From NCBI RefSeq assembly GCF_027622875.1, contig NZ_JAPZVP010000022.1:1-64000 (forward strand): a DNA stretch of 64,000 nucleotides, written 5' to 3'. Every line of letters begins with the position of its first letter. The first letter of the stretch is position 1. The translations under genes and the position numbers were made by a program. The DNA comes from Glycomyces luteolus (lineage in GTDB: Bacteria > Actinomycetota > Actinomycetes > Mycobacteriales > Micromonosporaceae). The notes beneath the pieces are model-generated. The model was not told the origin of the DNA. It saw only the letters and a list, made by a program, of their open reading frames with translations, and searched no databases. Positions 19,606-47,602 of this stretch are shown here, in pieces.

Positions 19606-19770
19606 GGCGCAGCCGCCGCGTGAGTGTGTGCGGGCTGATGCCCGGCAATGCGGCGCGCAGTTCGGTGAAACGCCTCGGGCCGTTGAGGAGTTCACGCACG
19701 ATGAGCGTCGCCCAAGGGCCTTCGAGCAGGGTCAGGAACCGGGCGACACCGCATTCGGTTCGTCCACCTG
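19606..19770 (-). pseudogene. N-terminal fragment of an HxlR-family regulator
   Basis: On the minus strand the DNA reads CGVARFLTLLEGPWATLIVR, ELLNGPRRFTELRAALPGIS and PHTLTRRLRQF, which is the first half of the HxlR winged-helix domain. The chain then runs into inverted SnoaL sequence, and no proper start codon precedes it. It abuts the SDR remnant on the other side, so the original divergent promoter region has been deleted. Confidence 0.62.
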
Positions 19771-44818: not shown

Positions 44819-46267
44819 TTATACCGCCATGTCGACGAAGCGGGAGAGGTGCAGCTGGGCCGCGACGGTGATCGTGTCCGTCGCGCCGTTGCGGTGCTTG
44901 GCGACGATGAAGTCGGCCTCGCCCGCGCGCGGGGACTCCTTGTCGTAGTAGTCCTCGCGGTGCAGCAGGATGACGACGTCCGCGTCCTGCTCGAGCGAAC
45001 CGGACTCGCGGAGGTCGGAGAGCTGCGGGCGCTTGTCGGTGCGCTGCTCGGGGCCGCGGTTGAGCTGCGCGACCGCGATCACCGGGCACTGCACCTCCTT
45101 GGCCAGCAGCTTGAGCCCGCGGCTGATCTCGGAGACTTCCTGCTGGCGCGACTCGGTTTTCTTCGGCGAGGTCATGAGCTGCAGGTAGTCGACCACGATG
45201 AGCTTGAGGTCGTGGCGCTGCTTGAGCCGCCGGGCCTTGGCCCGGATCTCCATCATGGTCATCGAGGCCGTGTCGTCGACGAACAGCGGCGCCTCGGAGA
45301 TGTCGCCCATGCGCTTGGCCAGGCGCGTCCAGTCGTCGTCGGACAGGTCGCCCGAGCGCAGGACGTGCATCGGCACGCGGGTCTCGGCGCTCAAGAGGCG
45401 CATCACGATCTCGAGCTTGCTCATTTCAAGGCTGAACAGGGCGGCGGCGTGCCGGTGGTGGAGCGAGGCGTGCCGCATGAAGTCCATGGCGGCCGTTGAC
45501 TTGCCGGCACCGGGACGCCCGGCGACGATGATGAGCTGACCGGCCTGGAGGCCCGAGAGGAGCCGGTCGAGGTCGGCGAAACCGGTGGGGATGCCGGTCA
45601 TGAGGCCCTGGCTGGCGCCGATCGCCTCGATCTCGTCCATCGCGGGCTGGAGGAGGTCGGAGAGGACCGCGAAGTCCTCGCTCTGGCGGTTGTCGGTGAC
45701 CTCGTAGACGGCCTGCTGGGCGAGGTCGACGAGGTCGTCGATGTCGCGCCCGCCCTGGCCGCCGCCGTAGCCGTACTGGACGACCTTGGTGCCGGCCTCG
45801 ATGAGGCGGCGCAGGATCGCCTTCTCCTTGACGATCTTCGCGTAGTACCCGGCGTTCGCGGCCGTGGGCACCGCGTTGAGCAGGTCGTGGAGGTAGGGGC
45901 CGCCGCCGATCTTGGCGAGGTCGCCCGTGTCGGCGAGGGCCGCGGCGATCGTGACGGCGTCGGCGGGCTCGCCGTTGCCGAACTTGTCGATGATCGCGTC
46001 GAAGACCATGCCGTGCTTGGGATGGTAGAAGTCGCCCGGTCCGAGCACCTCGATGACGTCGGCGATCGCGTCCTTGCTCATGAGCATGCCGCCGAGGACG
46101 GACATCTCGGCTTGGGCGTCCTGGGGCGGGGTGCGCTCGTAGGCGCGGGCACCGCCGCCACCGCCCCCGCCGCTGCTGAACGGGTCTTCGGGCGGAGTGT
46201 CGAAATAGGAATTGCTGGAGCCGTTGGCGCCCCGCGAGTAGACGCCTTCCGCCGACACGTCGGTCAT
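44819..46267 (-). CDS. dnaB: Replicative DNA helicase DnaB
   Basis: This 482-aa protein begins with a Gly/Ser-rich tail (about 45 residues, including seven glycines in a row). The DnaB N-terminal domain (PPQDAQAEMSVLGGMLMS) and the RecA-like motor follow: Walker A GRPGAGKSTAAMDF, Walker B LKLIVVDYLQLM, LAKEVQCPVIAVAQLNRG and the arginine-finger region SDLRESGSLEQDAD. No intein interrupts it. It unwinds DNA at the fork as a hexamer. I prefer the ATG at 46267, which follows GAGGGGGTGG, over a GTG at 46288. A DnaA-box cluster lies about 110 bp upstream. Confidence 0.96.
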   Translation of the reverse strand: MTDVSAEGVYSRGANGSSNSYFDTPPEDPFSSGGGGGGGARAYERTPPQDAQAEMSVLGGMLMSKDAIADVIEVLGPGDFYHPKHGMVFDAIIDKFGNGEPADAVTIAAALADTGDLAKIGGGPYLHDLLNAVPTAANAGYYAKIVKEKAILRRLIEAGTKVVQYGYGGGQGGRDIDDLVDLAQQAVYEVTDNRQSEDFAVLSDLLQPAMDEIEAIGASQGLMTGIPTGFADLDRLLSGLQAGQLIIVAGRPGAGKSTAAMDFMRHASLHHRHAAALFSLEMSKLEIVMRLLSAETRVPMHVLRSGDLSDDDWTRLAKRMGDISEAPLFVDDTASMTMMEIRAKARRLKQRHDLKLIVVDYLQLMTSPKKTESRQQEVSEISRGLKLLAKEVQCPVIAVAQLNRGPEQRTDKRPQLSDLRESGSLEQDADVVILLHREDYYDKESPRAGEADFIVAKHRNGATDTITVAAQLHLSRFVDMAV

Positions 46268-46378
46268 GCCGTCCACCCCCTCGGTCACCGTGCGTTCATG
46301 GAGAATGTACCGCCCGCATATGACAGATCGGCGGCGTCAACGACGCTATGTCGCGCCGGGCACGGTTGCAAACGAGGT

Positions 46379-46453
46379 TGTGGACAACCTGTGGACAAGG
46401 CTGTGGATAACCTGTGGATAACCGCGTTGGGCCTGTGGACAACCTGTGGACAA
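46379..46453. promoter_or_regulatory. Cluster of six DnaA boxes
   Basis: Six exact boxes on one strand begin at 46379, 46390, 46402, 46413, 46434 and 46445. Four read TGTGGACAA and two read TGTGGATAA, the complements of the actinobacterial TTGTCCACA and the general TTATCCACA. Successive starts are 11, 12, 11, 21 and 11 bases apart, about one or two helical turns. A degenerate box follows at 46510. DnaA oligomer binding is strongly suggested; whether this is origin, titration site or dnaB control is open. Confidence 0.85.
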
Positions 46454-46589
46454 CAACGTGATCCGAGCTCGGTTCACGGTCTTCATCTGCGGCGACGCTA
46501 TCCACCGCCTGTGGACGGAGATTCGTTCGTGCCAACTTGCCGCTAAGGTGAGGGGCGACCCCCGGCACGGATCAGAGGAGCTCGACCCC

Positions 46590-46979
46590 ATGAACGCCCC
46601 CCGGCAACCCGAGCGCAGGCCCCGGCTCGACCCCGACGGCGACGACCGCCCGGGGGAGCGGGCGTTCACGCCGACGTTGCTCGTGACCGTCGCCTGGTAC
46701 GCGGTGCCGATGGCCGTGTACCTGGCGTGGTTGCTCTCGCAGCCGCCGGTGGAGGCGACCTGCGCCGAGGGCGGATGCACCGTGGCGGGGCGGCTCTCGA
46801 CCGCGATCGCGGGCGGCTGGGCGTGGACGCTCTCGGCGCTCACGGCGAGCCTGCTCGTGGCGGTGCTCCTGCGGCTGCCGCGCGCGGGCTGGCGCGCGGG
46901 CGTGGCCGGCTCGGCGGCCGCGATCCTCGGCGCGGGGCTGGTGACGGTGGTGCTGCGGACCGCCGGGTGGGTGATCTGA
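46590..46979 (+). CDS. Small membrane protein of unknown function
   Basis: This 129-aa protein has a proline/charge-rich cytoplasmic start of about 30 residues and three hydrophobic helices (about 34-52, 75-95 and 103-125). Two cysteines (ATCAEGGCTV) lie in the loop between helices 1 and 2. GAGGAG precedes the ATG. It is divergent from dnaB across the DnaA boxes. I do not recognise a family. Confidence 0.72.
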   Translation: MNAPRQPERRPRLDPDGDDRPGERAFTPTLLVTVAWYAVPMAVYLAWLLSQPPVEATCAEGGCTVAGRLSTAIAGGWAWTLSALTASLLVAVLLRLPRAGWRAGVAGSAAAILGAGLVTVVLRTAGWVI

Positions 46980-47140: not shown

Positions 47141-47602
47141 CTACTTCTTGCGGCGCTTGGCCGGGGTGACCTGAAGCTTGAACTTCGCGGTCACCTCCGG
47201 GTGCAGCTTGACCGACACGTCGTAGGTGCCGACCGACTTGATCGCGGCGGGCAGTTCGACGCGGCGGCGGTCGATCTTCGGACCCCCGGCCTCGTCGACG
47301 GCCTTGACGACGTCGACCGCGGTGATCGAGCCGAAGAGCCGGTCCCCGTCGCCCGTGCGGGCGACGATGTGGGCGTCGGTCTTCTTCAGCTGCTCGGCCA
47401 CGGTGCGAGCCTGGTCGAGGTCGTGGATCTGGCGGGCCGCACGGGCGCGCTGGATCGCGTCGACTTCCTTCTGACCGCCCTTGGTCCAGGCGATCGCCAG
47501 GCCCTGCGGCAGGAGGTAGTTGCGGCCGTAGCCGTTCTTCACCTCGACCACATCGCCGGCCGAGCCGAGGTTGGGCACCTCATGAGTCAGGATGATCTTC
47601 AT
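47141..47602 (-). CDS. rplI: 50S ribosomal protein bL9
   Basis: This 153-aa protein begins MKIILTHEVPNLGSAGDVVE and VKNGYGRNYLLPQGLAIAWT, the bL9 N-domain, followed by the long connecting helix and the C-domain (VARTGDGDRLFGSITAVDVV). The end is Lys/Arg-rich (TPAKRRKK). It is the last gene of the rpsF-ssb-rpsR-rplI operon, 14 bp after rpsR. Confidence 0.97.
   Translation of the reverse strand: MKIILTHEVPNLGSAGDVVEVKNGYGRNYLLPQGLAIAWTKGGQKEVDAIQRARAARQIHDLDQARTVAEQLKKTDAHIVARTGDGDRLFGSITAVDVVKAVDEAGGPKIDRRRVELPAAIKSVGTYDVSVKLHPEVTAKFKLQVTPAKRRKK

Follow-up and report, generated by a model that had tools for sequence, protein, structure and literature searches.

Six DnaA boxes in one orientation lie upstream of the replicative helicase gene dnaB in Glycomyces luteolus. 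Judged from their sequence, spacing and placement, it is quite probable that the array serves cooperative binding of DnaA at the dnaB promoter, which would couple dnaB transcription to DnaA and most likely activate it. DnaA boxes at dnaB are already known in kind. What appears to be new, as comparison of genomes suggests, is a regular track of origin-spaced boxes that is tied to a predicted promoter in much of the class Actinomycetes, with a Glycomyces copy that is unusually perfect.

The six-box array and its surroundings

A pattern search of the window, i.e., the whole stretch of 64,000 nt analyzed here, finds the sequence TGTGGAYAA six times on the plus strand, with starts at 46379, 46390, 46402, 46413, 46434 and 46445 (offsets 0, 11, 23, 34, 55 and 66). 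Four copies are TGTGGACAA and two are TGTGGATAA. Thus the number of exact boxes, their single orientation, the steps of 11, 12, 11, 21 and 11 and the two variants given in the initial annotation are confirmed. On the minus strand, which is the strand of dnaB, the boxes read TTRTCCACA and are found 112–186 bp upstream of the gene. Numbered from the promoter-proximal end and written on that strand, boxes 1 (46379..46387) and 2 (46390..46398) are TTGTCCACA, boxes 3 (46402..46410) and 4 (46413..46421) are TTATCCACA, and boxes 5 (46434..46442) and 6 (46445..46453) are again TTGTCCACA, with one array step skipped before box 5. Their centers are at about −47, −58, −70, −81, −102 and −113, respectively, from the putative transcription start site. 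The gaps between consecutive boxes are 2, 3, 2, 12 and 2 bp, which agrees with the 2–3 bp gaps expected of cooperative DnaA binding. The boxes had been described as facing one side of the helix, and this holds roughly, but at 10.5 bp per turn they drift by ~100 degrees from one end to the other; the description is approximate only, because the step is closer to 11 bp than to 10.5.

The dnaB gene (44819..46267, minus strand) encodes a protein of 482 aa with matches to Pfam DnaB and DnaB_C. A −35 element of dnaB, TTGCAA (46366..46371, minus strand), is predicted by eye from conservation, and a 17-bp spacer separates it from a predicted −10 element, TAGCGT (46343..46348, minus strand). Transcription from this predicted promoter would start near position 46336. 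The sequence GTTTGC, which overlaps the predicted −35, and CGACATAGCGTC at the predicted −10 are both invariant in 22/22 aligned rows of Glycomyces clade sequences. Box 1 is 7 bp from the conserved predicted −35, the kind of closeness to a promoter that is expected of DnaA-regulated genes.

Across the array from dnaB is a divergent gene for a small membrane protein (46590..46979, plus strand), which matches no Pfam family, is nearly confined to the Glycomyces clade and falls outside of the conserved unit; rplI (47141–47602, minus strand, with Pfam L9 domains) lies beyond it. An inverted pair of box cores, TCCACCGCCTGTGGA (46501..46515), is situated between the array and the divergent gene and is conserved across Glycomyces. 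A strongly conserved stretch around GTGCCAACTT, at 46525–46549, also precedes the divergent gene across the genus. An Rfam scan of the window gives one match, a tRNA, and thus no known RNA element is found at the array.

Exact boxes in the window and in the genome

The window has six exact boxes on both strands taken together, and all are inside the array. In 100 dinucleotide shuffles of the window the mean is 0.12 exact boxes with a maximum of 1, and 0/100 reach six. The whole genome (5.74 Mb in 49 contigs) has 50 exact TTRTCCACA sequences (27 + 23) vs 10 of the reversed control pattern. Six of the 50 are in the array, and therefore 12% of the exact boxes of the genome are within 75 bp. In the genome-wide pattern search the array is the densest run of exact boxes.

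The next densest run has five exact boxes and is found at 19739–19870 of contig C8. Here exact and near boxes (C8:19715–19870, the same as L074:3716–3871) are inside an open reading frame and belong to a (G/S)YPQ-type repeat of a 1055-aa protein, with TTATCCACA read as -YPQ. This run was rejected as a DnaA site because its boxes fall in a coding repeat; a motif scan would miscall it as a DnaA cluster. The genome search for other clusters that the initial annotation had proposed otherwise returned pairs of exact boxes, none of them an array comparable to that at dnaB in the stretches examined. One pair, 74 bp apart (L180:1845–1927), is upstream of a 386-aa gene and in the gene's orientation; the gene has a sub-threshold ParA/CbiA match, and our guess is that it may encode a septum-site protein. 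A second pair, 22 bp apart (L075:3747–3777), immediately precedes the start of a ComEA-like gene with HHH and SLBB domains. A third, 46 bp apart (L178:1691–1745), is flanked by the 3′ ends of two genes, one for a LuxR-type response regulator and one for an IMP dehydrogenase.

Conservation in Glycomyces and near relatives

The array was compared in 22 clade loci 9 to 64 kb in length, namely the window, a metagenome bin and 20 records of Glycomyces. In 22/22 loci no fewer than four exact boxes are kept in place, with six in 14, five in 4 and four in 4 of them, and the boxes begin 119–187 bp upstream of the dnaB start. There is no further exact box in any of these 22 stretches. The initial annotation had made its reading depend on retention of the boxes in close relatives with an intact dnaB, and 0 losses are seen in the 22 loci. 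The dnaB genes of the Glycomyces loci show an 85–100% match in the best segment, apart from a second, diverged and partial DnaB-like match in G. paridis (L060; 59% over residues 202–481). That second match has no upstream boxes and is perhaps of mobile origin.

In the 22-row alignment, identity to the consensus is 0.969 in the 54 box columns vs 0.797 in the 21 interbox columns, and beyond the array it falls to 0.701 (50 columns). Since identity is likewise high in the predicted promoter (0.901) and in the leader (0.885), the boxes are not alone near dnaB in being well conserved.

Among more distant relatives, Actinorhabdospora (L024) has four exact upstream boxes and Phytomonospora (L026) three. 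Other loci outside of the clade have one (L027) or two (L033 and L041). L034 has one exact box on the opposite strand, and L035 has two, one on each strand. The metagenome bins L028 and L029 have 0 exact upstream boxes, as do L042 and L043, where the dnaB matches begin mid-protein; L036 provides no upstream bases. No exact box is found within 700 bp in L044–L072, which are distant DnaB relatives together with L060 (L065 has only 3 upstream bases), and these loci were not scored as box losses.

Boxes upstream of dnaB across the order, class and phylum

Upstream sequences of dnaB, each at most 1.5 kb long, were taken from 60 order-level and 40 class-level genomes, hand-picked to spread families from a pool of 150 and 118 genomes searched, of which 144 and 114, respectively, have a dnaB match. 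Box counts are based on 56 usable genomes of the order set, with the own genus left out, and on 39 of the class set; two regions truncated at a contig end, G089 (327 bases) and G171 (271 bases), were omitted. The dnaB start in the relatives was taken from protein matches, and these often miss about the first 40 codons of the query. In many of the order and class genomes the dnaB matches are split or end near query residues 254–259 or 430. These matches sit in open frames whose lengths range from several hundred to 1550 codons, a pattern that inteins at recurrent sites would give.

The order set has 47 exact same-strand boxes within 600 bp, distributed over 38/56 genomes, vs 0.128 expected from genome-wide counts. 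The controls give four exact boxes on the opposite strand and one in the distal stretch (both strands). In the class set an exact box is present on the same strand in 13/39 genomes and on the opposite strand in 8/39, and the distal stretch has one. Thus 18/56 order genomes and 26/39 class genomes are without an exact same-strand box. A relaxed box is found in 82/95 genomes, with 143 same-strand, 22 opposite-strand and nine distal occurrences, vs 3 and 4 same-strand and 6 and 2 opposite-strand occurrences of two control patterns; even the relaxed box is absent in 13/95. The view that a box cluster beside dnaB is in itself unusual does not hold for actinomycetes, where same-strand boxes and their phasing occur in many genomes. 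In the phylum outside of the class, where 20 of the 67 genomes with a dnaB match were examined, same-strand sites 10–12 bp apart are present in 5/20, and 8/20 have no same-strand site within two mismatches.

Phasing and promoter register

Distances between same-strand sites (≤2 mismatches) were collected from 95 genomes of 64 genera, the own genus left out. They peak at 11/12 bp (49.9 and 42.9, genus-weighted), with further peaks at 22/23, 33/34, 44/45 and 53–57 (about 55) bp and little between, vs about 0.1 per distance in dinucleotide shuffles. The mean step read off this histogram is about 11 bp. Chains of boxes favor regular steps by construction, but the distance histogram does not. The distal stretch of 98 genomes has 46 and 56 sites within two mismatches and no phased series; the opposite strand near dnaB in the same number of genomes has 188, more than the distal stretch, with no clear series. 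The same distance series, though less sharp, is seen at the oriC-dnaA loci of a set of 20 genomes, the own included.

A TANNNT hexamer, i.e., a −10-like sequence, is positioned 39–41 nt from where the last box of a chain begins, or one step more (51–52 nt), in 34.4/65 genus-weighted units. The null gives a mean of 1.18 and a maximum of 4.0 in 200 resamplings, and it flatters the result because the offsets were picked after their histogram had been seen. Unweighted, the hexamer is in register in 64/97 genomes and none is in register in 33/97; the count covers 97 of the 98 genomes, G150 having been dropped as it has no chained site within two mismatches. The genomes are related, and genus weighting corrects for kinship in part only. 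Most chained boxes across the class carry 1–3 mismatches. In two families (f32 and f33) a perfect TGTGGATAA is flipped and promoter-proximal, 37 nt from the −10, in 6/6 sampled genomes.

The origin of replication and its distance from dnaB

In this draft genome dnaA and dnaN are together on contig C5, and dnaB is on C15. The dnaN-dnaA intergenic region has boxes in both orientations, many of them in 11/12 steps. Boxes in both orientations beside dnaA-dnaN are the normal oriC layout, and thus the search for a dnaA-dnaN origin that had been suggested for this genome finds an ordinary oriC on C5. The distance between dnaB and dnaA could be measured in 23 of 25 relatives, with five of the measurements assuming a circular record. 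It is 34–83 kb in 19/23, with a median of 46 kb, and 227–439 kb in the other four.

Discussion

We infer that Glycomyces DnaA binds at the array, that it regulates dnaB and that the sign of its effect is positive. Where adjacent boxes share an orientation and are 2–3 bp apart, DnaA molecules could occupy them next to one another and form an oligomer like that at oriC. Such an oligomer would end 7 bp above the −35 element, within touch of RNA polymerase, and the contact could couple dnaB transcription to the amount of DnaA, perhaps also to its nucleotide state. DnaA would most likely activate dnaB, and helicase supply would then follow initiation capacity. Control of dnaB by DnaA, one of several roles that the initial annotation had offered for the boxes, is well supported by their position at the predicted promoter, their persistence across much of the class and the binding of mycobacterial DnaA upstream of dnaB (PMC7738170). 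Given regulation, activation is the rather likely sign, because the boxes are upstream of the predicted promoter and because I282T, a DnaA allele of M. tuberculosis, under-expresses dnaB. For its activating sign the reading draws on a single DnaA mutant from a different genus, whose effect could be indirect. For the class Actinomycetes as a whole, we give about equal weight for and against a broader proposal, in which the dnaB promoter carries an oriC-like phased box track of ~11 bp per step, in register with the −10, on which a DnaA filament resembling the one at the origin would sense the level of DnaA and directly license helicase synthesis in a conserved feed-forward circuit.

That the array arose by chance or as a compositional artefact is a negligible prospect. 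The coding repeat on contig C8 demonstrates that a box cluster can be mimicked elsewhere in the genome, but the array is intergenic and no shuffle yields six boxes. Moreover, the spacers diverge and the boxes hardly do, and conservation in all of the clade loci makes such an origin very unlikely. The array could also be thought to control the divergent small membrane-protein gene, since it sits between both genes and part of the region beside that gene is conserved as well. However, when 133 stretches (loci L011–L043 and 100 upstream regions) are searched by tblastn, a homologue of this gene near dnaB is found only in the Glycomyces clade, with one weak match in addition (L028), while at dnaB the boxes recur in much of the class. 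The divergent gene was rejected as target for this reason, and we regard it as improbable; because it is nearly confined to the clade, the array is assigned to dnaB. A secondary replication origin or helicase-loading site, the latter also proposed in the initial annotation, was suggested by the number of boxes and by 11/12-bp steps that resemble those of the genome's own oriC. No AT-rich unwinding element is found beside the array, where the lowest-GC 50-mer is 50% GC vs 36% in the dnaN-dnaA region; in addition, the exact boxes at the array have one orientation only and a normal dnaA-dnaN oriC exists. An origin at dnaB was rejected on the GC-richness of the array relative to the dnaN-dnaA intergenic region, and we hold it to be very improbable.

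Two further readings accept DnaA binding. The array may be a datA-like titration or inactivation locus, whose early doubling would lower free DnaA and delay the next round of initiation. It has strong same-direction boxes clustered outside of oriC, as datA-like sites do, and it is the densest exact-box run in the genome. Since dnaB is near dnaA in most of the measurable relatives (34–83 kb in 19/23), the array would double early. In B. subtilis and S. coelicolor, clusters of boxes are known to repress untimely initiation, and those datA boxes that are essential all point the same way (PMC5742627). Against this, the mismatches in most chained boxes of the class make them poor for titration, and many chains keep the predicted-promoter register, which a pure sink does not need. 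Titration as the function of the array is therefore possible though rather unlikely, and because of the closeness of dnaB to dnaA it may accompany promoter control or be a side effect of it. The other reading keeps the array at the dnaB promoter and reverses its sign, i.e., a DnaA oligomer beside the −35 blocks RNA polymerase and represses dnaB. Box 1 is near enough to the predicted −35 to interfere, and several E. coli genes, dnaA included, are negatively regulated by DnaA (PMC11317965). However, the boxes are upstream of the predicted promoter and not over it, and repression is a doubtful reading, a little more so than titration.

If DnaA does activate dnaB from this array, the initiator would control the supply of the machine that it loads, and it would do so through an origin-like site. 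The class concerned holds the main antibiotic producers and the mycobacteria. Even in E. coli, transcriptional activation by DnaA is not well understood (PMC11317965). The register between boxes and promoter in dozens of genera makes such activation directly testable, and natural variants with fewer, weaker or flipped boxes form a ready series.

Comparison with known systems

Among the titles listed in searches of the open-licence literature, none reports a phased, promoter-registered array at dnaB across actinomycetes, and this scope makes it weak evidence of absence. For DnaA of E. coli, a distance of 2 or 3 bp between boxes is the preferred one at nearly all target sites (PMC11317965). This is the same spacing as in the array, but in pairs rather than in a run of six, and dnaB is not among the targets named in the passages of that study drawn on here. 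The datA locus and the S. coelicolor and B. subtilis clusters are similar to the array in that several boxes are found outside of oriC, and in the single direction of the essential datA boxes. They differ in being defined by an effect on initiation and not by position at a promoter (PMC5742627). In Caulobacter, a member of another phylum, dnaB likewise has predicted DnaA boxes upstream and belongs to the DnaA regulon (Hottes 2005, via PMC8203912).

The closest parallel is dnaB of Mycobacterium. In vitro, M. tuberculosis DnaA enriches five regions, one of them upstream of dnaB, and ChIP-seq in M. smegmatis recovers homologues of the same DnaA-bound regions; the I282T mutant DnaA, which binds less upstream of the mycobacterial dnaB, under-expresses the gene (PMC7738170). 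The passages of that paper drawn on here are without a phased array at dnaB, a promoter register or class-wide conservation. As a further difference, the Glycomyces boxes are near-perfect. The gene and the side are the same in both, and in Mycobacterium DnaA is bound there in vitro and in vivo (PMC7738170).
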